Below are positions 1,539-51,437 of a stretch of DNA of 64,000 nucleotides, piece after piece. The DNA is from Clostridiaceae bacterium BRH_c20a. GTDB taxonomy: Bacteria; Bacillota; Peptococcia; Peptococcales; BICA1-8. Both the position numbers and the translations under genes were made by a program. Where the stretch lies: assembly GCA_000961765.1 (NCBI GenBank), contig LADT01000090.1, positions 1-64,000 of the forward strand. The letters are read 5' to 3'. The notes under the pieces are model-generated. The model was not told the DNA's origin. It ran no database searches and worked only from the letters and a program-made list of their open reading frames with translations. Numbering within the stretch: position 1 is the first letter of the stretch; every line of letters begins with the position of its first letter.

Positions 1539-1545
1539 ATGAACG

Positions 1546-3245: not shown

Positions 3246-3274
3246 GATATTCCTAATTAGGAGGATGGAATGAT

Positions 3275-3739
3275 ATGAGTTATGTTTTATCAAAAACTGA
3301 AAAGAAAATTCTTTTTGATTTATATGATAGCCAAATTAATAATTGCTTCGATATCAAGATCCATCCTCAGAATTATGAATTATCGGAAAAGGATTCACGG
3401 AGTAGAATGCAAGAATTAGTTTACTATATAAAAAAACTCGATAGATTAGGCTATATTGATACCCAGAATGATTTTATTTATACGGGAGGAGATAAGCATC
3501 AGAAATATGAAAACAACGCTATCCTTATTATGCAAAACAAGATACACATATCATTCAAAGGAAGGTTATTCGTTGAAGAAGCGAGAAAGACAACTAAGGA
3601 TAGAATTTCTGAATGGCTAAGAAAAATATCAAAAGCAGTATTAAAACAGATAGAAGAAAAGATCATATCACATTTAGTGAGTTTCATATTAGGAGTTGCA
3701 TTTATTTTATTTATCCAATTCATTCTGAAACAAATGTAA
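3275..3739 (+). CDS. Hypothetical membrane-tail protein, cassette gene
   Basis: 154 residues. The N-terminal two thirds are hydrophilic with alternating helix and strand, resembling a winged-helix fold (K-T-E-K-K-I-L-F-D-L-Y near the start). The C-terminus is a single hydrophobic segment at about 130-150 (H-L-V-S-F-I-L-G-V-A-F-I-L-F), so the protein is probably tail-anchored. GGAGG lies upstream of the ATG. It starts 30 bases after an attC-like core and is followed 16 bases later by a second small gene before the next site, making a two-gene cassette. The function is unknown. A small soluble protein next to a small membrane protein is common in toxin-immunity or defence cargo, but that is inference. 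Confidence 0.6.
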   Translation: MSYVLSKTEKKILFDLYDSQINNCFDIKIHPQNYELSEKDSRSRMQELVYYIKKLDRLGYIDTQNDFIYTGGDKHQKYENNAILIMQNKIHISFKGRLFVEEARKTTKDRISEWLRKISKAVLKQIEEKIISHLVSFILGVAFILFIQFILKQM

Positions 3740-8501: not shown

Positions 8502-8736
8502 GCTACAATAGTAAAAGCGACACTAGGTGCAATACCTATTGAAGAAAAGAGCATAGTTTTTATTATACACGGTTGTGTTAAACAAGCATGTAGAACCCAC
8601 TTTTATTAGGTAGGCCTACTGGAAAATATTAAGAATATATATTTTTTCTCAGTGCTATCTAGTGGCTATTCATGATACTATATTTCTTGTATTATTTTGG
8701 GAGATAAATTCGCACGAATATATATATATTTCCTAT

Positions 8737-8762
8737 TAATGGAATTGTGTTTGTGCTATAAT
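8737..8762 (+). promoter_or_regulatory. Probable promoter of the BREX operon
   Basis: TATAAT (8757-8762) preceded by TGC, an extended -10 element, with TTAATG-like sequence about 17 bases upstream. It lies 55 bases before the HTH gene that opens the BREX operon. The rest of 8502-8736 is very AT-rich and shows no gene. Confidence 0.5.
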
Positions 8763-8816
8763 GGTCGTTAGGAATGTTTTAAAGACTTTAACCCCAAAAT
8801 GCAGAGGTGTCTATCA

Positions 8817-9047
8817 ATGGACGTATGTTATAACAAACTATTTAAGTTGCTGATTGATAAGGGAATGAAGAAAACTGATCTTCGGTTAACTACCGGTATT
8901 AGCCCCAACACTCTGACAAAATTATCAAATCATGATTATGTCTCCATGGAAGTGCTTGTCAAGATTTGTCGGGCGCTTCATTGTGATGTCGGAGATATCA
9001 TGGAAGTTGTTGCGAGTCCTGATAATGGGACAGACAAATCTGTATAA
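8817..9047 (+). CDS. Small XRE-family HTH regulator leading the BREX operon
   Basis: 76 residues from the ATG at 8817, which has AGAGGTG at the right distance. An in-frame ATG at 8799 lacks one. Nearly the whole protein is one Cro/C1-type helix-turn-helix (K-K-T-D-L-R-L-T-T-G-I-S-P-N-T-L-T-K-L), of the small type with C-R-A-L-H-C-D-V-G-D-I near the end. It is the first gene of the BREX operon and separated from brxA by only 32 bases, so it most likely autoregulates the operon. Confidence 0.8.
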   Translation: MDVCYNKLFKLLIDKGMKKTDLRLTTGISPNTLTKLSNHDYVSMEVLVKICRALHCDVGDIMEVVASPDNGTDKSV

Positions 9048-13907: not shown

Positions 13908-13921
13908 AGGAGTTATCGCAA

Positions 13922-16900: not shown

Positions 16901-17554
16901 TATGCCGGAGGCCAGTGGGATGCCAGCAAGTACAGTACCTTTATCCCTGACAAGGACAACATCTTGCCCATTACCGACGAGGAATACTTCAAGGATGATA
17001 TCGTTGGCCTGTTCGTAGCGTTTGTTAAAAAAGTATATGGATCTGAAACTCTGGAGCAAAACCTTGATTTTATTGCTAACGCACTTGGCAACAAGGGTAA
17101 TACCTCTCGTGAGATTATCCGTAACTACTTTGTAAAAGACTTCTTCAAGGATCATTGCAAAATTTATCAGAAACGCCCGATTTATTGGCTTTTTGACAGT
17201 GGTAGGGCGGATGGATTTAAGGCACTGGTCTATATGCACCGTTACAGTGAAAACACTATCGGCAACCTGCGTATAGATTACCTACATCGGATGCAGCGTG
17301 TCTACGACAGCGAGATCGCACGTATGCAGGAAACCATCGAAAACAGTACTAACGCTCGTGAGGTGGCTGCAGCGGAAAAACGTAAAGAAAAGCTGATAAA
17401 ACAGTTAAAAGAAACAAAAGAGTACGATGAAAAGATCGCCCACCTTGCTCTTGCTAGAATTGCTATTGATTTGGATGACGGGGTTGCGGTGAATTATGAA
17501 AAAGTACAGACTGACGCAGATGGTAAGAAACTTGAAGTGATGGCTAAGATCTAA
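13922..17554 (+). CDS. pglX: PglX, BREX adenine-specific DNA methyltransferase
   Basis: 1210 residues. Motif I D-P-C-M-G-S-G-H lies near 341-348 and the catalytic N-P-P-Y near 524-527, the signature of N6-adenine methyltransferases. Long target-recognition and C-terminal helical regions follow, as in PglX. PglX methylates a non-palindromic site to mark self DNA and is needed for exclusion. The middle segment at about 600-900 (15.7-16.7 kb) is more AT-rich than the ends. This is where the target-recognition domain sits, so it may have been exchanged by recombination. Ribosome site AGAGGAGTTATCGCAA. It is followed 25 bases later by the accessory gene. Confidence 0.95.
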   Translation: MNKTAIKNFAIWARNKLIADITYKAGLLGIIEKEIKSPLPQSTKDVKFFDIGTKEPYSITGDEIKQREKLAEIIINKAKQSDYANAYKSVIEEVAYTWFNRLIAVRFMEVNDYLPSRIRVLSSESATKAEPDMVTTPFDTDLEFTPYEKDRIVQLTHDNQLDELFRMLFIKQCNAFNANLPNLFEKTSDYTELLLNVSFTDKDGVVYRLVHEIPEDDFNVSKEGQIEIIGWLYEYYNTEPKDEAFALLKKNIKITKERIPAVTQLFTPDWIVRYMVENSLGRLWIERERACMGVSGEYLNGSYFGWKYYLEEAEQESEVEVQLKKIREEYKKIKPEDIKVIDPCMGSGHILVYAFDVLMQIYESQGWSKRDAAKSILENNLYGLDIDNRAYQLAFFAVMMKARQYNRRVLNGEIDCHVYSIQESNGINRRQLTFFGAGMSDIERNIAILQIQGLLDTFIDAKEYGSILNVENYNWELLYRFVSNVNMNGQLTLDTMGIEDTREQLRTLVEIGAMMAQKYDIVITNPPYMGASGFDTKMSEYVKQNYSDNKSDLFSVFIEKGINLLKINGLMSYITMQAWMFLASYDKLRYKIACQQIESLVQIGFNSFPELNSQVAHAVTFTVRKTGLNGFIGKYFNLNTKKTTDDKDVVFQCRIAKSQYYLNSAKSFIDIPNHNFAFWLTENEKDIIIKSRSLGEIIEIRQGLATGDNNRFLREWHEVDFAAIGIGMLSGEEFLKCSKKYAPYNKSGDFRKWYGNISSIVNWENDGFEIKHFVDAHGKLRSRPQNIQYYFKKGVTWSLISTNTFAARLSGGGFIFDVGGSSGFPDGENVWYILGLLCSRVTYSFLKAFNPTINFQIGDIKNIPIIQDTVEKVVINDLVKQNVSISKSDWDSFETSWDFPKHPLVRDKSTISSAFDQWEEFTKQHFSKLKANEEELNRIFIDIYGLQDELTPEVEDKDVTIRKADLGRDIRSFVSYAVGCMFGRYCLDVDGLVYAGGQWDASKYSTFIPDKDNILPITDEEYFKDDIVGLFVAFVKKVYGSETLEQNLDFIANALGNKGNTSREIIRNYFVKDFFKDHCKIYQKRPIYWLFDSGRADGFKALVYMHRYSENTIGNLRIDYLHRMQRVYDSEIARMQETIENSTNAREVAAAEKRKEKLIKQLKETKEYDEKIAHLALARIAIDLDDGVAVNYEKVQTDADGKKLEVMAKI

Positions 17555-17579
17555 TGTTCCATTTGGGGGATGTGATGCC

Positions 17580-19280
17580 GTGAGAACGGAATATATGGAT
17601 TACGAGCCGGTCGTGCAATATAGTGAAGTGTTTGGAGGTAAAGTTTCAGAAGAAGAATTCATTACACGTCTTTCAAAACTCGACGGCAGACAGGCTATAG
17701 CGACTATCTCAAGACTGTTAGCACTACATTATGCAACAACTGGTGGGGATCAAGGTGCAATTAAAATCAATTTTGGTTTAAGGTTCTGCCATTGTTATAA
17801 GTCTGTGGAGTCGAAAGGAGGAAATGCAACTTTATATCAGAGTCGAAAGATTCTATACTCCCCTCAGACATTACTTTTATTGACAAAATGGGTATTAATT
17901 TATTGCAAAGATACAAGGTTGTTAAGAAACATCGGCATGGATGATCTATTGGAAATTATGGATTTGTCTATGATTGTGAACGATCTTCTGCCACTAGATA
18001 CTGATATTGAAGGTCATGAAATAGAATATCTTTATGTTACGCTATATCATAATTCTCATCGTTTGTTGAAATCACAGATAGGAAGGTCATATTATATTTT
18101 TTCTAAATTGATGAGCGAAATAGCTTCAACTAAAGAATTTATTGAAGATTTTCAGAAGAATCGTGGTTACTCGATAGAGGATTATTTTGCGGTTCTCCTT
18201 AATTTGCTCACGCAGAACTACCCGTCATATGATATTACGAGCTTTTGTGGAAAAAATCTAATGTTCACAGTTAATGGATTTGATGCAAAGCAGCTTAAAG
18301 ATGTTAGTCCGCTTGTAGTGGATTATTTATCTGAAGGTTGGGCATCATTTCAGGAAAAAGCCAAACAAAATCTTAACAAACAATGGGATTTTGAAGTGTT
18401 CTTTATAAAGCCCCTTATCCGCATTCAAGATACAGTTCAAAGCATAAGTGAAATCACGCTTTCTTATCATTTTTGGGAAGGATTGTATTGGAATATTCGC
18501 TTTCTATATGACAATCGTGATATAAAGTATCTAACTGAGTTTGGGCGCCCATTCGAGCAATACATTCAATGGTTAGCACGAGAGTCTGTTGTGGCATCAA
18601 ATGGAAGATATACTTATCAAAATGAATTTTTGTATAACTCCCAAGCAGGAGAAACACTGTCATCGGATGCCTATATCAAAATAGGCCAAAGTTTGATTAT
18701 CTTTGAAGCAAAGGCCAAGAGCCCTCATTCAAAGACTCTAAAAGGATATGATCTGGAGCAGATTATGCTTGAAGTAGAGGAATTAATAGTTGATCCTGTT
18801 TATCAGGTGAATAATAGATTGAAAGAGATTTTGTCTTTAGGTGACAGATTCCGGGAGAGTCAGGAAAAAGCCTTCTTTGAAAATGTTGATAACGTAATTG
18901 TGTTAAGTGTAAGTATGGAAAAAGTCCAACCAATTGGATCACTTCTCTATGCGGCAGATAACCTTTTGAAATGTGATTCCAGCAAGAAAAGGATTACGGT
19001 TGGTCTGATTAAAGCTTATCACAATCTCAATATTGAGGATTTTGAAGCTATTTGTAACCTTATAGGACAAGGTCAGGATATTAGCGGGATATTAATTGAC
19101 TGGTTTAATGGCGAACGTCAAAAGAATCTTACAGCAATACCTTTAGCTAATTATCTTTTGAATAATGGTTATCCGTATACATGCTCAGATAAATTACAAG
19201 ATATTTTTTCAGCCACCACAGATGAATTGTACGAAAGAACCTTTGGTGAAAAACGAGGTGAAATAGCATGGCCGAACTGA
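17580..19280 (+). CDS. BREX accessory protein with PD-(D/E)XK-like motif
   Basis: 566 residues, in the operon between pglX and pglZ, a place not occupied in the six-gene core of type I BREX. I do not recognise a named family. Near 362-377 it has S-S-D-A-Y-I-K-I then L-I-I-F-E-A-K-A-K-S, a D...ExK pattern like the catalytic core of PD-(D/E)XK nucleases: a conserved D, then two strands, then hydrophobic-E-x-K. The N-terminal 300 residues are helical. GTG start after GGGGGATGTGATGCC. The last 13 bases overlap pglZ, so the two are translationally coupled, which argues for a working part of the system, perhaps an extra nuclease effector. Not proven. Confidence 0.7.
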   Translation: MRTEYMDYEPVVQYSEVFGGKVSEEEFITRLSKLDGRQAIATISRLLALHYATTGGDQGAIKINFGLRFCHCYKSVESKGGNATLYQSRKILYSPQTLLLLTKWVLIYCKDTRLLRNIGMDDLLEIMDLSMIVNDLLPLDTDIEGHEIEYLYVTLYHNSHRLLKSQIGRSYYIFSKLMSEIASTKEFIEDFQKNRGYSIEDYFAVLLNLLTQNYPSYDITSFCGKNLMFTVNGFDAKQLKDVSPLVVDYLSEGWASFQEKAKQNLNKQWDFEVFFIKPLIRIQDTVQSISEITLSYHFWEGLYWNIRFLYDNRDIKYLTEFGRPFEQYIQWLARESVVASNGRYTYQNEFLYNSQAGETLSSDAYIKIGQSLIIFEAKAKSPHSKTLKGYDLEQIMLEVEELIVDPVYQVNNRLKEILSLGDRFRESQEKAFFENVDNVIVLSVSMEKVQPIGSLLYAADNLLKCDSSKKRITVGLIKAYHNLNIEDFEAICNLIGQGQDISGILIDWFNGERQKNLTAIPLANYLLNNGYPYTCSDKLQDIFSATTDELYERTFGEKRGEIAWPN

Positions 19281-21790
19281 ACTTAAAACAAATAACAGAC
19301 AAGCTTAACACCGAGTTTTCAGGTGATACCCGTAAGCTGGTATTCTGGTACGATGACAAGGCGGAGTTTGCTGATGATATTGATACACTGAAGCTGGTCG
19401 GTGCTAAGGTTTATCGCTTGGAACCGGACAACCAGTTCTACACAAAATACTTTTTGGAGCGGCTGGATCGGGAAACCAGCTATCTAATCTATGCCCCTTT
19501 TCCAAAGCCACCGGTGCGGGACAACCATTTGGCTGATACTTTATTATACTCGAAGCAGTTCTTTGCAACCCGTGCTGAATTAATTGCTTCCGATTTACTC
19601 CTTGATGATAAAAACAAAGCTGTTATCCAAAAATACATTAAGTTCTTTGGAGCTAAAGAAAGAACACAGAAGTTCTACGATCTGGAGATCGAGAACTTTA
19701 CAAGTGAAAGCATCGAAATTGCGATTATGAGTGTGCTCTGCAAAACACGTACAGCGTCCTTTGAAGAGGTGCTACGGGTTGTTATGACCGAAGACGGCTT
19801 TGACGATAACAAGTTTTTAACCGAATTTAGGAAGTATGATTTATTAAGTGCTTTCTGGCGTATGTGTGAGGAACAGTATGGCTATACTGATGTGAAGCCT
19901 ACACTTGAAAAGTTTATGATGACCATGTTTGTTACTTATACAGACCGCTATGTGCCTGGAGAGCTGCCGAAGGCCTGGCGCAGCTTTATTTCATACAAAT
20001 CTGGTAACATCATTTCTTTTATGGATAATCTGATGAATAACATCCTCTACCGGGAGCGCTACGATGAGATTTCTAACATGATTGCATCCAGCTTGAAAGT
20101 TACTGCTGAATTTGATGGGCATTCGCCGGAATTTCTGATTGATTGTGATACTTTCGCTGTTATTGACAACATTATCCATAGTTGGCTGACAGAGCGCTTA
20201 TTGAATGAAGATACCGGTGCGAAGTTAAACGGTCTTAATATCCCATCTATATGCCAGGAACGCTGCAAGAAGCATTTTGGCTTACAGGTGCAGGGGCAGT
20301 ATAATATGCTGTCTAGTGCTTTCTACATAATTTGTGCAGCCAACTATACATGCCCCGATGATATGGAAAGCATCATCAAACAGTATGGCAGTAAGGATTT
20401 TCTAATCGATGGATATTACCGCGCTTTTTACTATGACTATGATCAGCTTGCAGATACCACGCAATACGAGAAGTTGCGGGACCTGGTTGAGAATATCTAC
20501 ACCAATGAGTATCTGGCAAAAGTGGTGCCGAAATGGAATGCAGCCTTTTCATCAGATAAAGTAATGACTGATTTGCTTTTACAGCGTAATTTTTTTAACA
20601 GCTTTATCCGCAGAAGCAGGGACAAGGTTGTTGTAATTATCTCAGATGCACTTCGATATGAGACGGGATATTCTCTGTATCAGAAGTTGCAGGATGATGT
20701 CAAGTGTACCGTAAAGCTGGATGCGATGATGAGTGTTCTGCCTTCCTATACACGACTTGGTATGGCGGCTCTGTTGCCTCATAAGATGCTGGAGATGACA
20801 GATGATTTCAAAGTTCTGGTTGATGGTATGTCATGTGACGATCTGAAACAACGGGAGACTATCTTGCAGAGCTACGTACCAAACAGCCGCTGTGTGCAAT
20901 TTGATGATATAAAGACAATGAAGCAGGCACAGCTCCGTGAGATTTTTACTGGTAAGGAAGTAGTATATATTTACCACAACCAAATTGACGCCCGTGGTGA
21001 CAAACAGAATACTGAGAATGAAGTGTTTAACGCCTGCGAAGAGGCCATTAACGAGATATATAACCTGATCAAACGTCTTTCTGGCACTGCGAATACCTAC
21101 CATTTCATCGTGACGGCAGATCATGGCTTTATTTATAAGCGTGACAAGCTGAACGAAAGTGACAAAATAGGCGGCGTAACCGGTAAAGGTGCATTTATTA
21201 ATCGGCGCTTTATTGTATCTGACAAGTCAATTCAGGATGATGGTGTTGCCAATACGTCCTTGGGATTGATACTTGGCAATGATGATGGAAAAGTAGTGTC
21301 CTATCCGGTAAGCTCCAATGTGTTTAAAGTGCCGGGTGGAGGACAGAATTATGTTCACGGTGGCTCTTCTCCACAGGAAATGATAGTTCCGGTTATTGAT
21401 ATCAAAACAGAAAAAGGGCATATGGAAACAAGACCGGCGCAGATTATGCTGGTTAGCATGGTTCAAAAAGTAACAAATCTAATTGTAACCTTAGATTTCA
21501 TCCAGTCGGAGCCGGTTAGTGATGTAGTGAAATCAACCAGCTACAAGCTATTTTTTATATCGGAAAACAATGAGAAGATTTCCAATGAGTGCATTTATGT
21601 GGCAGATAAGAAAGATACTGAGCCGCAAAAGAGAATCTTCCGTCTGCGTTTCAACTTCAAGAATAAAAAGTATGATAAGTCTAAGCAATACTACCTGGTA
21701 GCCTATGATGAAAAGAACGATTTAGAAATCCTGCGTCATTGCGTAGCAATTGATATAGCTTTTGCCAATGATTTCGGATTTAATGTATAG
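19268..21790 (+). CDS. pglZ: PglZ, BREX alkaline-phosphatase-superfamily protein
   Basis: 840 residues. The PglZ domain occupies about 440-720, with V-V-V-I-I-S-D-A-L-R-Y-E near 455 (metal-binding D and nucleophile region) and T-A-D-H-G-F-I-Y near 614 (DHG metal ligands). Helical N-terminal regions and a beta C-terminal extension complete the usual architecture. PglZ is the hallmark protein of BREX; some members show metal-dependent nuclease activity. The start ATG overlaps the accessory gene and has GAGGTG upstream. brxL follows after 11 bases. Confidence 0.95.
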   Translation: MAELNLKQITDKLNTEFSGDTRKLVFWYDDKAEFADDIDTLKLVGAKVYRLEPDNQFYTKYFLERLDRETSYLIYAPFPKPPVRDNHLADTLLYSKQFFATRAELIASDLLLDDKNKAVIQKYIKFFGAKERTQKFYDLEIENFTSESIEIAIMSVLCKTRTASFEEVLRVVMTEDGFDDNKFLTEFRKYDLLSAFWRMCEEQYGYTDVKPTLEKFMMTMFVTYTDRYVPGELPKAWRSFISYKSGNIISFMDNLMNNILYRERYDEISNMIASSLKVTAEFDGHSPEFLIDCDTFAVIDNIIHSWLTERLLNEDTGAKLNGLNIPSICQERCKKHFGLQVQGQYNMLSSAFYIICAANYTCPDDMESIIKQYGSKDFLIDGYYRAFYYDYDQLADTTQYEKLRDLVENIYTNEYLAKVVPKWNAAFSSDKVMTDLLLQRNFFNSFIRRSRDKVVVIISDALRYETGYSLYQKLQDDVKCTVKLDAMMSVLPSYTRLGMAALLPHKMLEMTDDFKVLVDGMSCDDLKQRETILQSYVPNSRCVQFDDIKTMKQAQLREIFTGKEVVYIYHNQIDARGDKQNTENEVFNACEEAINEIYNLIKRLSGTANTYHFIVTADHGFIYKRDKLNESDKIGGVTGKGAFINRRFIVSDKSIQDDGVANTSLGLILGNDDGKVVSYPVSSNVFKVPGGGQNYVHGGSSPQEMIVPVIDIKTEKGHMETRPAQIMLVSMVQKVTNLIVTLDFIQSEPVSDVVKSTSYKLFFISENNEKISNECIYVADKKDTEPQKRIFRLRFNFKNKKYDKSKQYYLVAYDEKNDLEILRHCVAIDIAFANDFGFNV

Positions 21791-35396: not shown

Positions 35397-36380
35397 ATGG
35401 CAAAAGGATCTAATCAAAAGCTAAAAATCCTATACCTTATGAAAATACTGCTGGAAAAAACTGATGAAGAAAACACCATGACTGTCAATGAGATGATTGC
35501 GGAGCTTGATAAGTACGGAATAGCAGCTGAACGAAAATCCATTTATGATGATCTTGAAGCTTTGCGTCACTATGGAATTGATATAACCAGCCGGAAAACA
35601 AGAACTACCGATTACTTTGTAGGTAATCGGCTTTTTGAGTTGCCGGAATTAAAGCTGCTGGTAGATGCTGTCCAATGTTCTAAATTTATTACGCACAGGA
35701 AAAGTAACGAGCTTATAAATAAAATTGAGAGCCTTGCTAGTAAATATCAGGCAATGCTTTTACAACGTCAGGTTTATGTTGCAAACAGAGTTAAGACGGT
35801 GAACGAGAGTATTTATTACAATGTGGATAAGTTACACACAGCCATAGCAGAAAACAAACAGGTATATTTCAGATATTTTGAATACACAGTTAATAAAGAA
35901 AAAAAGTTCCGAAAAGACGGTGGAAAGTACAGGGTAAGCCCCTATGCTTTGTCGTGGGATGATGAGAACTATTATCTAATAACTTTCTCTGAAAAATATG
36001 GTGACTTTACTCATTATCGGGTGGATAAAATGACGGATATTGAGATAACTGATGAAGTAAGAGCAAAGCTGCCGGACGATGAGCATTTTAATGTTGCGGA
36101 TTATTCCAAAAAAGTCTTTAATATGTTCGGGGGAGAGGAAGAAACAGTAAGATTACAATTTGATAATTCACTTGTTAACGTGGTTATAGACCGTTTTAGT
36201 AAAGATATACCCATCGAAAAAGTTGATGAAAACAACTTTGTTATTAGAATAAAAGTAGCTATAAGCTCTGCCTTTTTTGGCTGGGTGTTTCAGTTTGGGA
36301 ATAAAGTAAAGATATTATCGCCGGAAAGTGTTGTTGAGCTATATGCAGAAACTCTAAAGCAAATTGTCAGCCAGTATTGA
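35397..36380 (+). CDS. WYL-domain transcriptional regulator
   Basis: 327 residues. N-terminal winged helix (L-K-I-L-Y-L-M-K-I-L-L-E ... M-T-V-N-E-M-I-A-E-L), then a WYL domain near 130-230 (Y-R-V-S-P-Y-A-L-S-W-D-D-E-N-Y-Y-L), and a C-terminal WCX-like extension (F-G-W-V-F-Q-F-G). WYL regulators (BrxR, CapW) often control BREX, CBASS and other defence genes, binding inverted repeats and sensing nucleic acids or nucleotides. Ribosome site GAGGTGCTCTT. DUF429 follows after 16 bases. A near-identical truncated 5' copy lies at 26116, so this gene was probably once next to the PLD gene. The palindromes at 23897 and 37157 are candidate operators. Confidence 0.85.
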   Translation: MAKGSNQKLKILYLMKILLEKTDEENTMTVNEMIAELDKYGIAAERKSIYDDLEALRHYGIDITSRKTRTTDYFVGNRLFELPELKLLVDAVQCSKFITHRKSNELINKIESLASKYQAMLLQRQVYVANRVKTVNESIYYNVDKLHTAIAENKQVYFRYFEYTVNKEKKFRKDGGKYRVSPYALSWDDENYYLITFSEKYGDFTHYRVDKMTDIEITDEVRAKLPDDEHFNVADYSKKVFNMFGGEEETVRLQFDNSLVNVVIDRFSKDIPIEKVDENNFVIRIKVAISSAFFGWVFQFGNKVKILSPESVVELYAETLKQIVSQY

Positions 36381-39747: not shown

Positions 39748-40791
39748 ATGAAGAGATATAATGGAAGCGGATTAACACCATTGTTTTATTCTGAAATATC
39801 GTCAAGTTATATGCTTTATGATATATTCAAAAATCATGAAAAGATTATAGCACGCCTGATAGAAGAAACATTTAATATATTACCCGAAAAAATAATTGTT
39901 GAAAGAGAACGTGCATATCCAAAAAAAGGTTCTATAGATATATTTGTTGAGTTTATTAATGCTGGAAAAAAGCATGCTTTACTAATAGAAGTAAAGGTGC
40001 ATGATTATCTGAGCGCAACAGATGGGCAAATTGGTACATACATTAATGCGGTTTTAGAAGATAGTGTATATGATGAGGTGTATTTCATTTATTTGACACA
40101 GTTTACCGCTGAAAATGATTTCAAGGGTATTGCAACTCCGAAAACTATAGATGAAGCCAAAAAAGGTAAAAAACTTATAAAAGAACGATTTGCACATATC
40201 TCGTGGAATCAGATGCACTCGTTTTTGAATAAACACTATGAGATGCTGACGGAGGAACAGCAGTTGATAGTTTCCCTTAATAAGCAATGGATTTTGCAGC
40301 AATGCGAATCAGACTTGGAAAGCAATAAAATTGATGTAGGAGAAAGAGGAATTGAGGATTACTTCTTTGACGCTAAAATAGATATTAGAAACAGTTTGTA
40401 CTTTGGGAACGAGATTTGTGAAAACAAGAGACAAATCTGGAGAATAGATACATCTGTATTAGAAGAAAAACAACTTGACACTGTTTTGGATATAATTAAG
40501 ATACTTGCAGGGTCCTGTGCGATAAATAGAATAAAACAATATAAAACCGAAGAATTAACCTTGCAGGGTGCTAAGGATTTTTTAATACAGATGACACAAA
40601 GTATTGAGGATTGGAAACTATTAGCTTTCTATTCAAGATTATTTCTTCTTGCTGAAAAAACAAGCTACCTAAAATTTAATGGAACAGGGGCAAGGGGTTT
40701 TTCTATTAAGCTTGAGATACAAGGGAAAGGCGAAATTAGCCTGTGTACTATTTATAGAAATAAAACAATCGATTTTTCTCTTAAAAGATAG
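39748..40791 (+). CDS. PD-(D/E)XK nuclease superfamily protein
   Basis: 347 residues. S-I-D-I-F-V-E-F near 66 and A-L-L-I-E-V-K-V near 80 form the D...E-V-K core of PD-(D/E)XK nucleases. The flanking organisation (helix before, T-D-G-Q-I-G-T-Y-I after) matches the type often labelled PD-(D/E)XK nuclease family protein in defence islands. Ribosome site GGAGGGAGAGA. It ends 7 bases before the next small gene and so is co-transcribed. Target unknown. Confidence 0.75.
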   Translation: MKRYNGSGLTPLFYSEISSSYMLYDIFKNHEKIIARLIEETFNILPEKIIVERERAYPKKGSIDIFVEFINAGKKHALLIEVKVHDYLSATDGQIGTYINAVLEDSVYDEVYFIYLTQFTAENDFKGIATPKTIDEAKKGKKLIKERFAHISWNQMHSFLNKHYEMLTEEQQLIVSLNKQWILQQCESDLESNKIDVGERGIEDYFFDAKIDIRNSLYFGNEICENKRQIWRIDTSVLEEKQLDTVLDIIKILAGSCAINRIKQYKTEELTLQGAKDFLIQMTQSIEDWKLLAFYSRLFLLAEKTSYLKFNGTGARGFSIKLEIQGKGEISLCTIYRNKTIDFSLKR

Positions 40792-41200: not shown

Positions 41201-41276
41201 ATTAGGCAATTAAAATTACTTACTCTTACTTGAAAAATGAATGTTATAGGGAATATGAAAAAAGGAGTTGATTTAT

Positions 41277-42704
41277 TTGGCCGTCAGTTTAACGGAGTTC
41301 AAGAGAGAATACACAAAAGCTGTGTCTGAAGGATATGCGGCTATATTTGCCGGTGCAGGGTTGTCCAGAAGTTCAGGTTATGCAAATTGGAAGGAGCTAT
41401 TAAGGACTATTGCTAAAGACATCGGGTTAGATATTGATAAGGAAACAGATTTGGTCGCAGTAGCCCAATATTATAAAAATGAAAAAGGCTCAAGGCGTGA
41501 TGGAATAAATCAGAAAATAATTAACGAGTTCACTAAAAATGCTCAGCAAAACGTAAACATTGAAATTCTAACACGCTTACCGATATCGGTATATTGGACA
41601 ACTAATTATGATGAATTGATTGAAGATAACCTGAAGCTAAATAATCGAAAACCTGACATTAAAACAAATCAAGATAGTTTAGCAAACAACTTTTATGATC
41701 GGGATGCTGTTGTATATAAGATGCATGGTGATGTAAGAAATCCTTCAGAAGCGGTTATAACAAAGGATGATTATGAAACCTATAATCAAAAAAGGGCATT
41801 ATTTACCACTGCTCTTCAAGGGGATTTAATATCAAAAACTTTTCTATTCATCGGATTTAGTTTTGAAGACCCTAACCTGGAATACATCTTGAGCAGGATT
41901 AAAGTCCTTCTTGGAGAAAACACACGGACTCATTATTGTTTTCTAAAGAAAATAGTTATCGATGATTATGAGAATGATGATGAATTCAAATATGCAATGA
42001 TAAGACAAGATTTAAAAGTAAAGGATTTGAGCAGGTATGGGATCGAAGCAGTTTTATTAGATGATTACTGCCAAATAACCGATATTTTGATGGAAATAGA
42101 GAATAATTGCAGGTTAAGTAATGTTTTTATATCAGGTAGTGCTGCAGTATATGGGGATAATTGGAGTGAAAAAGCAGCCATAAGTTTTATGCACAATCTT
42201 TCAAAACGGTTAGTGGGAGAAAACTATCGCGTAATTTCTGGGTTTGGGCTTGGTGTAGGAAGCGTAGTAATCAATGGTGCTTTGGAAGAAATTATGTTAA
42301 GCAAGTATAAACATGTTGATGAACATTTGTGCTTAAGACCCTTTCCGCAGATTCAATCAGGTACTAAGTCTTTAAAGGAACTATGGGAAGAGTATAGACA
42401 GGAAATGATAGAACATTCTGGAATAGCTGTTTTCATTTTTGGTAACAAAGAAACCCAAGATGGCGTTGTTTTAGCCAATGGTATGATTAGAGAGTTTGAA
42501 ATAGCTAAAGAGAAACAGAAGTATATAATTCCTATTGGTTCAACTGGATATGCTGCCAAACAAATACTTGATGAGGTTGAAGCAGCTATAGGGGATTATC
42601 CTTATTTGCTAAACTACTTGGAAGTTTTAAAAACTGAAACTGACGAGAATAAATTGATTTCGGCTGTATTAGACATTATCTCTGATATACGGGGGGATTT
42701 ATAA
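41277..42704 (+). CDS. thsA: ThsA, Thoeris effector (SIR2-like NADase with SLOG domain)
   Basis: 475 residues from the TTG at 41277, which has AAAGGAG 9 bases upstream, almost the length of the Bacillus cereus protein. The N-terminal SIR2-like domain shows A-A-I-F-A-G-A-G-L-S near 20, W-T-T-N-Y-D near 105 and the catalytic-type K-M-H-G-D-V near 146. The C-terminal SLOG domain shows V-F-I-S-G-S-A near 283 and G-F-G-L-G-V-G-S near 322. In Thoeris the ThsB proteins make a cyclic ADP-ribose isomer after phage sensing, and it binds the SLOG domain and activates NAD cleavage, killing the infected cell. thsB follows with a 1-base overlap. Confidence 0.93.
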   Translation: MAVSLTEFKREYTKAVSEGYAAIFAGAGLSRSSGYANWKELLRTIAKDIGLDIDKETDLVAVAQYYKNEKGSRRDGINQKIINEFTKNAQQNVNIEILTRLPISVYWTTNYDELIEDNLKLNNRKPDIKTNQDSLANNFYDRDAVVYKMHGDVRNPSEAVITKDDYETYNQKRALFTTALQGDLISKTFLFIGFSFEDPNLEYILSRIKVLLGENTRTHYCFLKKIVIDDYENDDEFKYAMIRQDLKVKDLSRYGIEAVLLDDYCQITDILMEIENNCRLSNVFISGSAAVYGDNWSEKAAISFMHNLSKRLVGENYRVISGFGLGVGSVVINGALEEIMLSKYKHVDEHLCLRPFPQIQSGTKSLKELWEEYRQEMIEHSGIAVFIFGNKETQDGVVLANGMIREFEIAKEKQKYIIPIGSTGYAAKQILDEVEAAIGDYPYLLNYLEVLKTETDENKLISAVLDIISDIRGDL

Positions 42705-43186
42705 TGGCAAGAAAAGTGTTTTTTAGTTTTCATTTTGAAAGAGATTCTTGGAGAGCTGGACAGGTAAGAAATAGCGGGGTTACAAAAGAAAACTCTGGAT
42801 TCATTGATGCAGCCGCTTGGGAAGAAGTTAAGAAAAAGGGTGATAAAGCAATTAAGGATTGGATTGATGACCAATTAAAAGGGACGTCTGTTACGGTAAT
42901 CCTCATTGGCAAAGAAACGGCTGACAGAAAATATGTAAAGTATGAAATTCAAAAAAGTGAAGAGAAGGGCAATGGATTTGTTGGGATATATATTCATGAT
43001 TTGGAAAACAAGGATAAAGAAAAAGAAGCAAAAGGGACGAATCCTTTGACGATGTTTTACTATGAAAAGGATGGCAAGAAAATCTATTTGTCGGATATTT
43101 ATAAATCTTATTATTGGAAGAAAGATGACGGTTACAAGAATTTTGGGAAATGGGTAGAAAATGCTGCAAAACTGGCTGGAAGATAA
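42704..43186 (+). CDS. thsB: ThsB-type TIR protein (first)
   Basis: 160 residues. R-K-V-F-F-S-F-H-F-E-R-D at the N-terminus, a G-T-S-V-T-V-I-L-I-G-K-E-T near 62, and Y-V-K-Y-E-I near 78 (catalytic-type E) follow the TIR-like ThsB (DUF1863) pattern. The gene overlaps thsA by one base. It is the sensor that makes the signal nucleotide. The second TIR protein follows after a 45-base gap. Confidence 0.9.
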   Translation: MARKVFFSFHFERDSWRAGQVRNSGVTKENSGFIDAAAWEEVKKKGDKAIKDWIDDQLKGTSVTVILIGKETADRKYVKYEIQKSEEKGNGFVGIYIHDLENKDKEKEAKGTNPLTMFYYEKDGKKIYLSDIYKSYYWKKDDGYKNFGKWVENAAKLAGR

Positions 43187-43231
43187 TTGTTAATTTAGCT
43201 AAATATACTCAAGAGTATGAGGAGGGGGAAA

Positions 43232-43918
43232 ATGGGTCGTAAAATTTTTATATCATATAAATATTCTGATAATAACGTCTATAATATAACCGGAAGCATA
43301 TGGGGAAGCACTGTAAGAAATTATGTAGATAAAATCGAAGAAATCATAGATGATTCAGACCATATCTATAAGGCTGAATCTGAGGGAGAAGATTTATCAT
43401 ATTTAAGTGAAGAGCAAATCTGGGAGAAGTTAAAGGATAGGATTTATGATAGCACTTTAACCATCGTTCTTATTTCTCCAAATATGAAAGAATGGTTTAA
43501 AGAAGAGAAGGATCAATGGATTCCAAGAGAAGTGTCATATTCGCTTAAAGCAATTTCACGTAAAAATAAAAACGGTGATGCAGTTACGAGTTCAGAAAAT
43601 GCTATCTTAGCTGTAGTAGTACCTGATCGCAATAATTCATATTCTTATTACTTAAATTATAAGAGCTGTTGTTCAGGTGGCTGCAGAATGCTACAAAATA
43701 GCACAATATTTAAAATATTAGCTAATAACATGTTCAACATTAAGAACCCCGATAAGAAAGAGTGCGATGATAGCTCTGTAATCTATTACGGGGATAGTAG
43801 CTATATTTCTGTCGTTAAATGGGATGACTTTATTAGTAAAATGGATTCTTACATTAATAAAGCTTATGAAATTAAGGAGAATATTGACAATTACAACATC
43901 TGTAAAGAGATTAGTTGA
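43232..43918 (+). CDS. Second ThsB-like TIR protein
   Basis: 228 residues from the ATG at 43232 (GGAGGGGGAAA upstream). R-K-I-F-I-S-Y-K-Y-S-D at the start, L-T-I-V-L-I-S-P-N-M-K near 83 and P-R-E-V-S-Y-S-L near 106 (candidate catalytic E) mark a TIR-like domain of the DUF1863 group, clearly different from the first ThsB. Some Thoeris loci carry several ThsB genes with different phage specificity. Extra C-terminal region of about 80 residues with a C-C-S-G-G-C cluster. Confidence 0.85.
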   Translation: MGRKIFISYKYSDNNVYNITGSIWGSTVRNYVDKIEEIIDDSDHIYKAESEGEDLSYLSEEQIWEKLKDRIYDSTLTIVLISPNMKEWFKEEKDQWIPREVSYSLKAISRKNKNGDAVTSSENAILAVVVPDRNNSYSYYLNYKSCCSGGCRMLQNSTIFKILANNMFNIKNPDKKECDDSSVIYYGDSSYISVVKWDDFISKMDSYINKAYEIKENIDNYNICKEIS

Positions 43919-44003
43919 GTGTTTTAATGATGGAGAAATTATGGTTTTAGTTATACCGTATGTGGACCAAAATATACGAGAATTCCTATCGGGAGGTAGC
44001 AAT

Positions 44004-44690
44004 ATGGTCTCACTTGAACAACTAAAAGAACTTTGTAAGCCACCTTCTGAGGGGAAGGCATACTATCGTCCAATGTTATGTAATGGTGATTTAGACAAAG
44101 TGGAAATTTTCTTTGTTGGTACAAATCCAGCGACGCCAATTTTCCCGGAAGATATGAATTTAGATAGTTACGTTAACTTACTATTCAACTACGACGAGTT
44201 TTTGAAATACTATAAATCTTTACGCTTGGCAAATGGCAAAGATGGGATTTCTCGTACACGTATTGGCATGGGTGCATTTCTGAACTGGCTCACTAAACAA
44301 ACCTCAGCGTCAATTGTTGAAATAGAAGTTATTCCTTACCCAACAGAAAAGCTAAAGCAACTGAAAAAGGAACCCCTAACAGTCATAGAACGAGGTAAAG
44401 AGATATTTTTTGAACTGGTGATGCAGTTTCAACCTAATATGATTATTTTGCATGGTAAAACAACTGTTGAACATGTTGTTGACATATTTGAACGCAATGG
44501 GCTTTTACCAAATGGAGTAGTTGATACCGATCAGTCAATTGAGGACATGGAGTATAGCTCTCCAATAAGTACAGTTATTTATCCCGGTGGGAAGATCGGA
44601 ACAATAATGGCTTGTAGGCACTTTATGTACTACGGAATCACTGGGGATTCTTTCGGCGAATTTAGAAAGAAAGTGGTTGCGAACCTTTAA
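44004..44690 (+). CDS. Uracil-DNA-glycosylase-superfamily-like protein
   Basis: 228 residues. The ATG at 44004 has CGGGAGGTAGCAAT upstream; a longer frame begins inside the TIR gene and is rejected. F-F-V-G-T-N-P-A-T-P near 38 resembles the first motif of UDG-fold proteins, and I-I-L-H-G-K near 153 and the C-terminal C-R-H-F-M-Y-Y region could form the rest of the active site, but this is not certain. It follows the Thoeris genes by 85 bases and is likely in the same transcript. Could be a DNA-repair enzyme or a defence effector recognising modified bases. Confidence 0.55.
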   Translation: MVSLEQLKELCKPPSEGKAYYRPMLCNGDLDKVEIFFVGTNPATPIFPEDMNLDSYVNLLFNYDEFLKYYKSLRLANGKDGISRTRIGMGAFLNWLTKQTSASIVEIEVIPYPTEKLKQLKKEPLTVIERGKEIFFELVMQFQPNMIILHGKTTVEHVVDIFERNGLLPNGVVDTDQSIEDMEYSSPISTVIYPGGKIGTIMACRHFMYYGITGDSFGEFRKKVVANL

Positions 44691-44830
44691 AGACAGGAGT
44701 AATCATATTGTCTCAATAAACGGTAAATGTATATAGATACACTTACAAAATCGTATCGCCGGTTGAGGTAGAAAAATACCATGACCGGATTTTTGCTAAT
44801 ATGTGTATAGGCATTATTGCAATACAAAAT

Positions 44831-44881
44831 ATGCAAATTTGCATAAATTGCGTTGACTAATACATAACTATTTGCTAAGAT
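44831..44881 (+). promoter_or_regulatory. Palindromic operator and promoter of the XRE-dynamin gene
   Basis: ATGCAAATTTGCAT (44831-44844) is a perfect 14-base palindrome. Directly downstream is TTGACT (44853-44858), 17 bases, TAAGAT (44876-44881), a good sigma-A promoter. Since the gene that follows carries an N-terminal helix-turn-helix, autoregulation is likely. The rest of 44691-44830 holds nothing recognised. Confidence 0.65.
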
Positions 44882-44943
44882 ATGGAATGTAAATAAATTT
44901 ATGGAGTAGAAAATGATATTGAGTAGAAATGAAGGAGGAAAAA

Positions 44944-47163
44944 ATGTTTGACTTAAAGAGCTTTCGAGAAAATAATCTTAAAATGACACAGGCAGAATTT
45001 GCAAATCATATTGGGGTTCGTCAAGATTATGTTTCAAGGTTAGAGCAATCTACAGAACAAATCCCTCTTGAAGTACTGGTGAAAATAGCTAACTTTACAG
45101 GAACAACTCTTGATGAATTAATCAAATACAAACGTCCGACCCCAAAACCTTTGGAGATAGATGACACTTGGCGTAGTGCTGACTTTACTAAACGTACGAT
45201 AGTTGATTACATAAATGAGTGCGGAATACGTTATCGTAGCCAGTGGGGTGAGAATTATGATAAGTATATAAGTGAACTCAGAGATAGAGTGGAAAGGGTG
45301 ATCGCGAAGCCCAAAGTTGCAATTGTGGGTCATTCTGATGTAGGTAAAAGTAGATTGATAAATTCAATTATTGGTTCAGAGAAAATGCCTACTTCATGGA
45401 CACCAACAACTTCAATAACTGTTTATATTAAGCATATAAAAGATAGACCAAATTATATTGAGGAGGAGGCTTGGATTTTTAGAACCTCACCTGATGGTAT
45501 TGTTGGTTGGGATGAAAAAAAATTAAATAATGAAGAATATTGCAGGTCTTGGAAGTTGGCAGGAGGAAGTGCTGATATTCTGAAGGATTATGGTACTCGA
45601 CAAGGGGAAATGTATGGAACAAACGAGGCTGGTGCTGCTGTAATCTTTGTTGACAGTGAAATTTTGAAAAATTGTGATGTTATTGATTTGCCGGGCTTTG
45701 GAACTGGCGATCGTGTTGAAGATGACACAATGACTTTAAAAGCAAAGGAATTTGCTGATGTTTTGATTTACATGTCACATGCTGGACAGTTTATGCAAGG
45801 TGGAAGCATAGAATATCTGAAAGAAGCTATTAACTCATTAAATGTTATTGAAAATATAAAAGAAAATGAACTCAAGCCACTTTCAAATCTGTTCGTGATT
45901 GCATCGCATGCTCATACTGTCGATGGAGGTAATCCTAAATCACTGACCACTATACTTGATAATGGTTGTTCCAGATTGCTACAAACAATGCCTAAAGCAT
46001 TCTGGAACAATAAAAAGGAAATATCCGGGCACGATTATAACTACGATATTATTAGAAGCCGGTTTTTTACATATACAACTGATATTGAACGATTGAGAGT
46101 AGAATTCGAAAAAGAAATAAAAATTTTGGTGGAAAAGCTACCGCAAATTATCAATGAAAAAGCAAAGGATTTTGTAAGGCAGTATATCAAAGATACTGGT
46201 GTTAATATGGATAACGAAATAGCCGAATATAATAACATTATTGCCGAACGTGACAAATATGAACTTTTATTAAAGGAAATCAAAAAAAACGAACCTAAGA
46301 GAGCAAACGAAAACCAAAATCGTAGAATGGACTTGATCTCTGATATTAAAAAAATGTCGTTCTCCTCTGTAGAAAAATTTGCAGATGAATATGGTCGTGT
46401 TATATCGACGGACAAAATTGTTTCTATTATCAAAGAAAAAGGCTTTAAGAAAAAGAAAGAAGATATTCAGTCCTTGGTAAGTTTTATTAATTCAACCTTA
46501 CAACATAAAATGCAGGATATCTTAAAAGGCCACTCTGATGACTTAAAAGAAAAAATTGATAAGTACCTTGCAGACTTTGAAGGTAGCATCAAGAGTAATA
46601 ATTTTTCTGTGGATGTTGGAGATATTAAGTTTTCCTTTGATGTAACGAAGGCGTTTGCTTCCGGATTAGCAGGAGCGGTTACGTTTGGTGGATTGGCATT
46701 TTGGGCGGCTTCAATGGGAAATTTAGGTGCGTACATTCTTGTGGCCAAGGGTGTAAGTTTGCTATCTGCACTTGGTATCTCGGTTGCAGGAGGGACAGCT
46801 GGAGCGACGGCAGCTGTATCTGCAATAGGTGGTCCAATTGTGCTAGGTATCGCACTGGCTATTATTGCAGCAATTTCAGTATTTGCACTTTTGTCTGGTG
46901 GCTGGGAAAAGAGTTTGGCTAAGAAGATTGTTAAGGAGTATGATTCAAAGAATTGCTTGATGAAATACAAAGAGGGTATCGAACAGTTCTGGACAGATAC
47001 CGTAAATGCATTTAATGTAGCAGCTGATGCTCTGGATAAGGAGTGGAAGGGATATATTTGCAATCTTGAAGAAATGGTATCCTCATATAACATTGGAGAT
47101 ATCCAACATAAGATTAAAGCAGCAGAGGAATTTAAAAATTTTCTTTCAGGCATTCCGCTATAA
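44944..47163 (+). CDS. Dynamin-family GTPase with N-terminal XRE helix-turn-helix
   Basis: 739 residues from the ATG at 44944, preceded by AAGGAGG at the right spacing (an ATG at 44929 lies before that site). Residues 1-65 are an XRE-type DNA-binding domain (M-T-Q-A-E-F-A-N-H-I-G-V-R-Q-D-Y-V-S-R-L). A dynamin-like GTPase domain follows: G-H-S-D-V-G-K-S near 129-136 (G1), a T-P-T-T-S region (G2), D-L-P-G-F-G near 249-254 (G3), and I-A-S-H-A-H near 320 (in place of the usual G4). A coiled-coil stalk precedes two or three hydrophobic segments near 574-660 and a helical end. Dynamin-like proteins remodel membranes. A DNA-binding domain on one is rare, so it may sense or be controlled through DNA. 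Operator upstream suggests self-regulation. Confidence 0.8.
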   Translation: MFDLKSFRENNLKMTQAEFANHIGVRQDYVSRLEQSTEQIPLEVLVKIANFTGTTLDELIKYKRPTPKPLEIDDTWRSADFTKRTIVDYINECGIRYRSQWGENYDKYISELRDRVERVIAKPKVAIVGHSDVGKSRLINSIIGSEKMPTSWTPTTSITVYIKHIKDRPNYIEEEAWIFRTSPDGIVGWDEKKLNNEEYCRSWKLAGGSADILKDYGTRQGEMYGTNEAGAAVIFVDSEILKNCDVIDLPGFGTGDRVEDDTMTLKAKEFADVLIYMSHAGQFMQGGSIEYLKEAINSLNVIENIKENELKPLSNLFVIASHAHTVDGGNPKSLTTILDNGCSRLLQTMPKAFWNNKKEISGHDYNYDIIRSRFFTYTTDIERLRVEFEKEIKILVEKLPQIINEKAKDFVRQYIKDTGVNMDNEIAEYNNIIAERDKYELLLKEIKKNEPKRANENQNRRMDLISDIKKMSFSSVEKFADEYGRVISTDKIVSIIKEKGFKKKKEDIQSLVSFINSTLQHKMQDILKGHSDDLKEKIDKYLADFEGSIKSNNFSVDVGDIKFSFDVTKAFASGLAGAVTFGGLAFWAASMGNLGAYILVAKGVSLLSALGISVAGGTAGATAAVSAIGGPIVLGIALAIIAAISVFALLSGGWEKSLAKKIVKEYDSKNCLMKYKEGIEQFWTDTVNAFNVAADALDKEWKGYICNLEEMVSSYNIGDIQHKIKAAEEFKNFLSGIPL

Positions 47164-47223
47164 AGAATTGGTTTGAAGTGATAAATAAGTGGGATGCCTT
47201 GAATAAAGAGAGGAAGGATAATC

Positions 47224-48376
47224 ATGGAACAGTTGAAATTGTTTGAAGACCTTATCGCTTCAAATAATATTTGGGATGCACATACAGTAGGTAAAAAACC
47301 TCTACGGCAAAGACCTTGGCAATAAAGATATTTTCAGTAAGTATTTTGATTTTATATGTACAATCGCAAATTATCCAATAGAAATCAAAACGAGGAAATA
47401 CTTTATCAGTGAAGCTGAAACAGCACTTGTATTCTACTCTGAAAATGCCGAAATGAACACTGAACAATTAATGTTCATTAAAGCCTGTAGGGACAAGCTC
47501 ATGAATATCTCAAATGCAATTACTGAATTGGAGCAAGAGCTTATCTCTAAGCACAATAACAAGCTTATTGCAGACAATAACGAATTGTTGACAGAATTGG
47601 TCGATCTTAAAAGCAAGCTATTTTCTGCAAAGAAACAAGAAGATTTTGACGCTTTTCTCATTAAGGTAAACGAGAAGGAAAACACTATTTTGAAAGAGGT
47701 TCTCACTAATGAGCAAAAGGCATTATATGACACGCTAACAAAGGAATACTCCGTCATTATAAGCGATAAGATGATGGAACTTAATCTGCTAAGCAATACA
47801 GAATACAATAGAACGGCGGTAAAGGATTTTAAGTTTGTATTTGATGAAATCAGAGATAATGAAGCAAAATATAAAAATAGCCAATCTCAGCTTTTTACAC
47901 TCGTATCAAAGCGATTATTCTCATATGATCCGGCAAAATTGTTTAATGAAACGCTAATATATTACAACCATGTCTATTCGTTTATATTTAGCAAGTTGGA
48001 TTATACGGAATTTATTAATGCAGTTATAAAGCAAGAAGCAAGGAATACTTTTGAGAGATCTGGAGATATCAATTTAGAACTACCAAAAGAACTTGTTCCA
48101 TTTTACTCTCAGTATGTTCCGGTTGATGTGGAGATTGTCTTAAATGATCTGACTTCGGTTAAACTTTATCCTGCAAATAGATTAAAGTCTTTGCAAAATG
48201 AATATAACCTCGGTGATAAATATTTTGTATTTGCAACCCGGGAAAGCGACCCAATTGCAATAATGGATGGCAAGATCGTAACCTGTGCTCATGGAAGTAA
48301 GCTTCCCCAAATTGAGATAATTGCTTCAAATTTTGATGCATACATACATGAATTGCTTAATGCTATGAAGATATGA
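47224..48376 (+). pseudogene. Companion of the XRE-dynamin gene, broken by a frameshift
   Basis: The ATG at 47224 has GAGAGGAAGG upstream and reads M-E-Q-L-K-L-F-E-D-L-I-A-S to a stop at about 47325. The sequence continues in another frame from CTC TAC GGC at about 47298 (L-Y-G-K-D-L-G-N-K-D-I-F-S-K-Y-F-D) to 48376, with no stop. The shift falls in the A-run of GGTAAAAAACCTC at about 47289-47301. Joined, it would be about 384 residues, with a central coiled-coil (residues about 85-200) and no membrane segment. Unknown family. Its position right after the dynamin-like gene suggests a partner. A sequencing error would restore the gene. Confidence 0.55.
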
Positions 48377-49530: not shown

Positions 49531-50487
49531 TCAATTTCCATCTCTCTGTCTGATTTTCCACAATGCCATTGGGTGTGATTTGATGCGACAAATAATATCA
49601 GCATCATCGAACAACAGCTCCGGCTTATACTCTTTTGCTTCAAACTGCTCCAGAAATTCCTGTTCCTGAGGTGTTAATGCCATTAATTCCGATATATACC
49701 CCTTTGCGGCTTTTTTAGCTAAATCCAAGTCAAATAAATCATGTTTGGTTAACACCGGAAGCAAATCCGTCTTGATTTTATATTTTGTAATACCATCAAT
49801 AGCCCCTGTATCAAAGCTTTTATTTATTTCCCTGGCTGATATTGCCGCGTAGAACACCACACACTTTCTGAGAAGCTGTTCTTCGCTTTCATCAAACAGC
49901 CTGAACTTAATCATATTGTAAACATCATATAAATCTCGTGCCGCAGCTCTGCTTATCAGCGCATTAATCTTGCTGCCGAAAATCTCAAGAGCATTAAGGC
50001 AATTCAAATTATATTCACTTTCGAAGTGTTCTGTAATGATTTTCATTTCTTGTACCGGGAAAATATGTGCTCTTAAAGAATAGTTGATTTCTATCTTAAT
50101 GGTATCTTTGTTGCCACCGCAATTAACATACTCATAAACCCAAGAATCAAGACTGTGGGGTGTTTTGGTTTTGGGACTGAGCCTGTATCCATTAAGGGCC
50201 ATAAATTTTGCAAGAGCTGTGTTTATCATTATTCTGTTTTGCAGCATTTCTTCTTTACTGTCATTGCCTAAATAATCAAGGTCAATATCCACGGACAATC
50301 TTGGAAGATTAAATATTGTTAAATTTATTGCAGTTCCGCCTTTTAAAGCTAATTTACCCTTCAATATCGGATCGCTGTTTATATATTCTAAGATATCCGC
50401 CAAGCGATAGACCTTTTCCAATGTATCCCGGATAAATCCAAATTTGGACGCTCTTTGAGAAATATAGTTTTTGTCATAGCTATACAA
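49531..50487 (-). CDS. AbiEii-type nucleotidyltransferase toxin
   Basis: 318 residues. G-G-T-A near 50-53 followed by S-V-D-I-D-L-D near 65-71 is the G-[GS]-x(n)-D-x-D nucleotidyltransferase core of AbiEii/AbiGii toxins. A conserved helical C-terminal half follows. Such toxins inhibit growth by nucleotide transfer to tRNA or related targets and cause phage abortive infection. The start overlaps the antitoxin stop by 8 bases. Minus-strand operon 51238 to 49531. Confidence 0.9.
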   Translation of the reverse strand: MYSYDKNYISQRASKFGFIRDTLEKVYRLADILEYINSDPILKGKLALKGGTAINLTIFNLPRLSVDIDLDYLGNDSKEEMLQNRIMINTALAKFMALNGYRLSPKTKTPHSLDSWVYEYVNCGGNKDTIKIEINYSLRAHIFPVQEMKIITEHFESEYNLNCLNALEIFGSKINALISRAAARDLYDVYNMIKFRLFDESEEQLLRKCVVFYAAISAREINKSFDTGAIDGITKYKIKTDLLPVLTKHDLFDLDLAKKAAKGYISELMALTPQEQEFLEQFEAKEYKPELLFDDADIICRIKSHPMALWKIRQRDGN

Positions 50488-51238
50488 GGGGCATACCTCC
50501 TTGCTCTACCATATGAAAAATACCATCGGGAACAACCAATTTCCATTGATTATTGTACGTAGTGCTTTCTTTCGTTAAATATCTGGTGCTTTTTCCGGTT
50601 TTACTTTTGCAGTAATCTATAAATTCACCGGAAAGATGCAGTTGATCTTTATAATGCTCCAATAGAAAGCCTGTTTTCTGATATAAAAACTGCATTTCAT
50701 AAGCAGACAAATACTTGATTAATTGATTCTCATCTAAATAAGGGATAGAAGTGATGCAATTTAAGAGTTCTTCCAGTCCCCCTATTTTTTCAAAATCCTT
50801 TATACTATCCACTATAGTTCGCTCTAACGAAGTAACCCGAATCCCCTTTGTGTTTTTTGGAGAAATTACTCCTAAATCAAATTTTGAAGGAACATACTTA
50901 TAAGTGATGCCCTCAAATTCAAAATCAGTAAACCTTTTCAAAGATGATACATATATTTCGTAAAACACCTGATTAGATATTCCCATATATTCGAAAGCAG
51001 AATGATGCGATAAATAAGCAGTTTCATTTATTGCACAGGCGATATGATACTTAGACGCTATTACCTGTTCGTCAGCAACGTTTACGCAAGTATAAAGATT
51101 GTTTCTGATTTTTTTTACAAGTCCTTTTTTAGAAAGTCTTAACACAAGAGAAGAAGCCGTTTTTTTATTGCCTACAAGATCGCATACATCATTCAAAGTA
51201 AAAGTATTCATTTTTGAAAGCTCTGCATATCCGACCAT
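50480..51238 (-). CDS. AbiEi-type antitoxin (transcriptional regulator)
   Basis: 252 residues from the ATG at 51238 (AGAGGTGATTAGC upstream); an earlier frame to 51292 has no ribosome site. The N-terminal winged helix (F-T-L-N-D-V-C-D-L-V-G-N-K-K-T-A-S) fits the AbiEi antitoxin domain, which represses the operon and blocks the toxin. The C-terminal half is the alpha/beta AbiEi_C-like part (T-S-L-E-R-T-I-V-D near 140). Cognate of the overlapping AbiEii. Confidence 0.88.
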   Translation of the reverse strand: MVGYAELSKMNTFTLNDVCDLVGNKKTASSLVLRLSKKGLVKKIRNNLYTCVNVADEQVIASKYHIACAINETAYLSHHSAFEYMGISNQVFYEIYVSSLKRFTDFEFEGITYKYVPSKFDLGVISPKNTKGIRVTSLERTIVDSIKDFEKIGGLEELLNCITSIPYLDENQLIKYLSAYEMQFLYQKTGFLLEHYKDQLHLSGEFIDYCKSKTGKSTRYLTKESTTYNNQWKLVVPDGIFHMVEQGGMPLV

Positions 51239-51437
51239 GCTAATCACCTCTTTAAATCTAGCTACGTTTTCTTTATTTTTAAAGATTATCAATCAGATTT
51301 TAAATATATTATTTCTTGAAATATATCATCTTATTCTCTATATGTAAAGATATATTTGAAAATTTTGAAGTAAAAACAGCAAATAAAACTTTCAGTTTAT
51401 TCGCGTTCCCGTGGCTGCCGTATCTTTAAGGTGATTT

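Follow-up and report, generated by a model that had tools for sequence, protein, structure and literature searches.

The window that we analysed is a stretch of 64,000 nucleotides from Clostridiaceae bacterium BRH_c20a, and it holds, on the plus strand at 44944-47163, a gene in which an XRE-type DNA-binding domain is fused to a dynamin-type GTPase. The product is 739 amino acids long from the ATG at 44944 and 744 from the ATG at 44929. The latter start, adopted in the original prediction, is probably wrong: an AAGGAGG Shine-Dalgarno sequence, read from the plus strand at 44932-44938, lies just 5' of ATG 44944, and the corresponding MFDLK begins the homologues L002 and L036, making ATG 44944 the likely start.

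The architecture that had been predicted, an XRE helix-turn-helix (HTH) directly before a dynamin-like GTPase with hydrophobic segments, was borne out. Within one open frame, HTH_3 (residues 9-64; 44953-45120, plus strand) scored 41.5 bits against a Pfam cut-off of 23 (E 1.4e-10) and Dynamin_N (residues 130-301; 45316-45831, plus strand) 40 bits against 27 (E 5.3e-10), a curated cut-off that other homologues exceed too. The XRE part, whose recognition helix reads VRQDYVSRLEQ, has a profile resembling HipB and controller proteins. In the GTPase, the G1 P-loop (GHSDVGKS), G2 (PTT) and G3 (DLPG) are intact. The guanine-specificity motif G4 (T/RKxD) is replaced by SHAH, a degeneracy that makes the preference for GTP uncertain; the same position reads TRSD in L006 and SQAD in L005. 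Two hydrophobic stretches, at about residues 599-617 and 624-660, may form the hairpin of a membrane paddle (46723-46908, plus strand) between predicted stalk helices. In the predicted structure, a poor model with a mean pLDDT of 47, stalk helices of pLDDT 70-88 flank these segments, and the best Foldseek neighbour of this model, 5OXF, is correspondingly weak (E 2.6e-3). The bacterial dynamin-like proteins Cj-DLP1/2 (5OXF), BDLP (2J68) and DynA are the best, if weak, profile and fold neighbours, and have in common with the window protein Dynamin_N and, as far as predicted, a helical stalk and a hydrophobic paddle-like hairpin. Unlike them, it adds an N-terminal XRE domain, a candidate operator and SHAH at G4, along with nuclease and immunity genes in the complete operons.

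Compared with its closest homologue (L001), the window dynamin is intact and under purifying selection (dN/dS 0.10). The HTH taken alone gives a similarly low value (0.11), which argues that both halves have been kept.

Judged from its gene content, the window amounts to a large defence island. A complete Thoeris system (41268-43918), made up of ThsA (SIR2 and STALD) and two different ThsB TIR proteins, immediately precedes the dynamin. An AbiEii/AbiEi pair lies downstream (49531-51292, minus strand), and BREX genes (BrxC, a PglX-like methylase and PglZ) with a WYL regulator lie further upstream (10275-21790 and 35397-36380). Similar company is found elsewhere: in L001 the dynamin directly follows the CBASS genes for a CD-NTase and a 4TM effector, and in L029 a WYL regulator precedes it.

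Several further features of this neighbourhood were recorded. Two adjacent ORFs of exactly 1210 amino acids each in the BREX region are unrelated to each other. A gene at 43824-44690 overlaps the end of the second ThsB and has no Pfam match; part of its tail survives (78.6% DNA) beside CBASS at L001 2033-2172. We considered this gene as a common UDG-like partner and rejected it, as it does not match the UDG-like gene of Clostridium tyrobutyricum. A PD-(D/E)XK_4 protein is encoded at 39748-40791, and a look-alike by eye sits at L030:523-1749, ahead of G037's distant XRE-dynamin.

Spread of the fusion and its candidate operator

At least 10 distinct homologues share this domain order, so the fusion is no artefact, and the wide co-occurrence of HTH and GTPase in other genomes is the opposite of what would have refuted the original prediction. 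The homologues range from a Clostridiales MAG (L001; 94% identity), C. tyrobutyricum (L002; 67%, apparently frameshifted near the C-terminus) and a Carboxydocella plasmid (L004; 61%) through L029 (G048) and L036 (G077), at 55% each, and L011/L030 (G037; 33%) to plasmids of Lactococcus, Lactiplantibacillus and Acinetobacter (24-28%) and P2-like Vibrio phages (23%). The host range thus covers Clostridia, other anaerobic Bacillota, these plasmids and these phages. The distribution is patchy: among 398 genomes sampled from the phylum, four have an XRE-dynamin. Scanning viral contigs with dynamin profiles returned one phage contig and otherwise weak HTH-only matches. The Vibrio phage copy is flanked by an ogr/gpB-like gene and a portal gene, which we read as a plausible position for phage cargo.

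Some copies have features of their own. Of the two closely related XRE-dynamins that the Lactococcus plasmid L005 carries in opposite orientation (1191-3377 and 6820-8847), the second differs in its hydrophobic region. The Acinetobacter plasmid dynamin has an annotated DUF3944 protein as its neighbour (L006:1030-1764), and L002:2483-3205, near the dynamin of C. tyrobutyricum, resembles it by eye.

Upstream of the window gene we read a predicted plus-strand promoter at 44853-44881 (TTGACT at 44853-44858, a 17-bp spacer and TAAGAT at 44876-44881). Seven nucleotides before its -35 box lies an operator-like palindrome, TATGCAAATTTGCATA, of the form TATGC-N6-GCATA. The palindrome described in the original prediction is real and perfect, and its length needs correcting from 14 to 16 bp (44830-44845). 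The window holds seven perfect palindromes of at least 14 bp, so this one alone is unremarkable, and we rejected as weak any judgement of its significance from the window only; what stands out is its conserved position in homologues. All five homologues with an RQDxxSRLE helix (the window, L001, L002, L004 and L036) carry TATGC-N6-GCATA 7-8 nt before a TTGA -35 box; of these, L001 is not independent of the window (91% DNA identity), and L002, L004 and L036 are. Among the six homologues with other recognition helices, five lack the site (L029, L030, L005, L007 and L009), and the sixth, L006, has a 17-bp variant. Strict shuffling gave such a site at a frequency of 0.0001-0.002 per locus. The pattern occurs once in the window; the rest of the genome has a few matches to a loose form of it, and the AT-centred perfect site is found only at the dynamin's promoter. 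Across viral sequences the exact 16-mer gave 28 scattered matches.

Dyads of other kinds accompany other copies: the Lactococcus L005 promoter has a different one (17+17) after its -10 box, dyads similar to TTAGACA-N4-TGTCTAA repeat at the Vibrio phage copy, and the L036 site lies within a 40-bp dyad with perfect arms of 19 bp.

This match of helix to site is, in our view, the strongest indication that the HTH of the fusion would bind DNA. Because the site tracks the RQDxxSRLE helix at the gene's own promoter, the HTH is very probably an autoregulator, and the predicted "own operator" thus gains comparative backing. XRE repressors of defence operons, such as CapH and controller proteins, likewise combine an HTH_3 fold with a palindrome at their own promoter; here, by contrast, dynamin and DNA-binding domain form a single protein. 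The location upstream of the -35 box is compatible with repression and activation alike. Nor is a TATGC-N6-GCATA switch universal, since L029 has a complete operon yet lacks the site.

Downstream genes in relatives and their decay in the window

The original prediction did not record the operon behind the dynamin, its nuclease and immunity genes, or its decay in the window. In L001, L029 and L036 the dynamin (A) is followed by three genes, B, C and D, in the same order. Gene B encodes about 278 amino acids with no known domain. Gene C encodes 389-398 amino acids, with a Tox-GHH domain that meets the Pfam cut-off and carries all the motifs listed for this family in a survey of polymorphic toxins (WxxE, W, GHH, NIxF and EH; PMC3482391), followed by hydrophobic, TM-like segments. 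The nuclease domain is internal (residues 87-154), and we recognised no secretion domain. Gene D of L036 is a SUKH-1 protein (PF09346; 30.4 bits against a cut-off of 25.4), and D of L001 and of the window match below that cut-off over the same span. The same survey describes the pairing of Tox-GHH with Imm-SUKH. C is likely a membrane-anchored Tox-GHH nuclease and D its SUKH immunity protein, as judged from these signatures.

Among the 398 genomes, B was confined to the dynamin carriers G000, G048 and G077, and C to G048 and G077. An extra weak B match in G334 was set aside as a coiled-coil false positive with no adjoining dynamin or toxin. Viral contigs scanned with B and C yielded no relatives, and no B, C or D gene was seen with the Lactococcus and Acinetobacter plasmid dynamins. 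L011 (1483-4419) instead encodes an HTH-dynamin with a C-terminal region like Mokosh MkoB, a PLD; we saw no Mokosh helicase domain in L011, and, as distinct from Mokosh, the PLD is fused to the HTH-dynamin. These arrangements are best read as effectors that may be exchanged between lineages, a Tox-GHH nuclease in some and a fused Mokosh-type PLD in another.

In the window the operon has decayed. Positions 44743-48001 align to L001 2397-5656, and 47993-48635 to L001 6900-7537, which places a 1.24-kb deletion junction at 47993-48001, with TTGGAT repeats at both ends; gene C is lost and B is fused to D. The B remnant (47225-47998, plus strand) has an apparent frameshift at about 47287-47300, lacks its last codons and gives a profile match split over two frames. 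The remnant of D (47999-48376, plus strand) retains the sub-threshold match to SUKH-1 (SMI1/KNR4-like) noted above; its structure prediction was unusable (pLDDT 42). Three other genomes have the intact B-C-D order, which marks the form seen in the window as derived, and because B, C and D are separate in those relatives we rejected the fused B-D ORF as a natural long gene. On the best reading the window copy is disarmed, having lost the nuclease and an intact B and keeping no more than the dynamin part and what is left of an immunity domain.

Possible roles of the module

We infer a role in phage defence from these comparisons. The reading that we prefer, as just about the probable one, makes the window gene the sensor and regulator of a mobile anti-phage module that is built on a dynamin, regulates itself and has a nuclease effector in its complete operons. 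It draws on the fusion's conservation in distant genomes, plasmids and phages, on the helix-matched operator and on equal purifying selection on HTH and GTPase. It draws equally on the A-B-C-D order of three genomes, on the restriction of B and C to dynamin carriers and on the Tox-GHH and SUKH signatures. Defence islands here and beside L001 and L029, the L011 PLD fusion, the gene's probable place as cargo in Vibrio phages and the precedent of DynA, a dynamin that shields Bacillus subtilis against phage (PMC8844932), point the same way. We counted against it the window's want of a putative effector, the missing site in L029, the plasmid copies from Lactococcus and Acinetobacter without B-C-D, the ambiguous operator position, the degenerate G4 and the poor structure model.

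The main rival is a DynA-like stand-alone role, in which the protein would be a self-sufficient, autoregulated membrane-repair dynamin, the HTH would set dose only, and B-C-D would be a separate travelling toxin-immunity cassette. The plasmid copies without B-C-D fit it, as does the disarmed window copy, whose dynamin is still under purifying selection despite the loss of B and C, and an autoregulatory operator is compatible with it. That B and C occur only with XRE-dynamins, their order unchanged across three divergent genomes, and that an effector-like PLD is fused to L011 speak against it, and we consider it a serious but rather unlikely alternative.

The dynamin might instead aid export of the Tox-GHH protein, much as LeoA reportedly enhances the release of toxin (PMC4159319), with D protecting the producer from an interbacterial toxin. 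Tox-GHH and SUKH domains typify polymorphic toxins. Exported polymorphic toxins, however, have a C-terminal toxin domain, whereas the nuclease of C lies mid-protein with TM-like segments behind it and no recognised secretion domain. The coupling to a dynamin, and the loss of the nuclease from the window, also set this pair apart from known Tox-GHH/SUKH pairs. The likeness to Eleos (LeoA-LeoBC) extends to weak PADLOC matches to the stalk and GTPase (LeoBC 40 bits and LeoA 33 bits; LeoBC 50 bits for L001) and to a common defence-island setting; unlike Eleos, the window has a single dynamin with no LeoA-LeoBC gene pair, a fused HTH and other partner genes. We hold toxin release to be improbable.

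The DNA-entry sensor first proposed, in which the HTH would bind incoming phage DNA and tether it to the membrane, accords with the domain anatomy and the phage-borne homologue, but a specific, helix-correlated operator at the gene's own promoter is the mark of an autoregulator, and the HTH looks ordinary, with a single AT-centred site genome-wide; we think this model very unlikely. Fainter still is the case for an addiction or plasmid-maintenance module of the type II toxin-antitoxin manner with XRE as the antitoxin half: the HipB/controller-like profile and carriage on plasmids and phages invite it, and against it stand the missing cognate small toxin, the effectors that vary by lineage and the role that D probably already fills as immunity to C.

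Under the preferred anti-phage reading, the fused XRE would bind TATGC-N6-GCATA beside the promoter and set expression of its own operon, the step we hold most firmly. The dynamin half, by analogy with its family, would assemble on membranes through its paddle in a nucleotide-driven manner and sense or repair membrane damaged by infection. Recruitment to the membrane may vacate the operator and, in complete operons, may unleash a membrane-anchored Tox-GHH nuclease otherwise checked by the SUKH protein. As a whole, such a transcription factor-dynamin switch, sitting on its operator in healthy cells and moving upon infection to the damaged membrane, so inducing the operon and freeing the nuclease from its SUKH inhibitor, with a fused Mokosh-type PLD as effector in other lineages, is a tentative proposal, conceivable and on balance doubtful.

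We found no description of an HTH-dynamin or of a dynamin/Tox-GHH/SUKH operon in the literature searched, a partial coverage that makes this weak negative evidence. Together, the fusion, its operator and the nuclease and antidote neighbours suggest a little-known form of virus defence that controls its own expression and that in the window has lost its toxin. Bacterial dynamins are linked to phage resistance. The match between recognition helix and operator predicts which homologue binds which site, and a dynamin that has its own DNA-binding domain, a conserved operator and, in its operon, a nuclease with its immunity gene would tie membrane state, transcription and an effector together in a compact system amenable to experiment.
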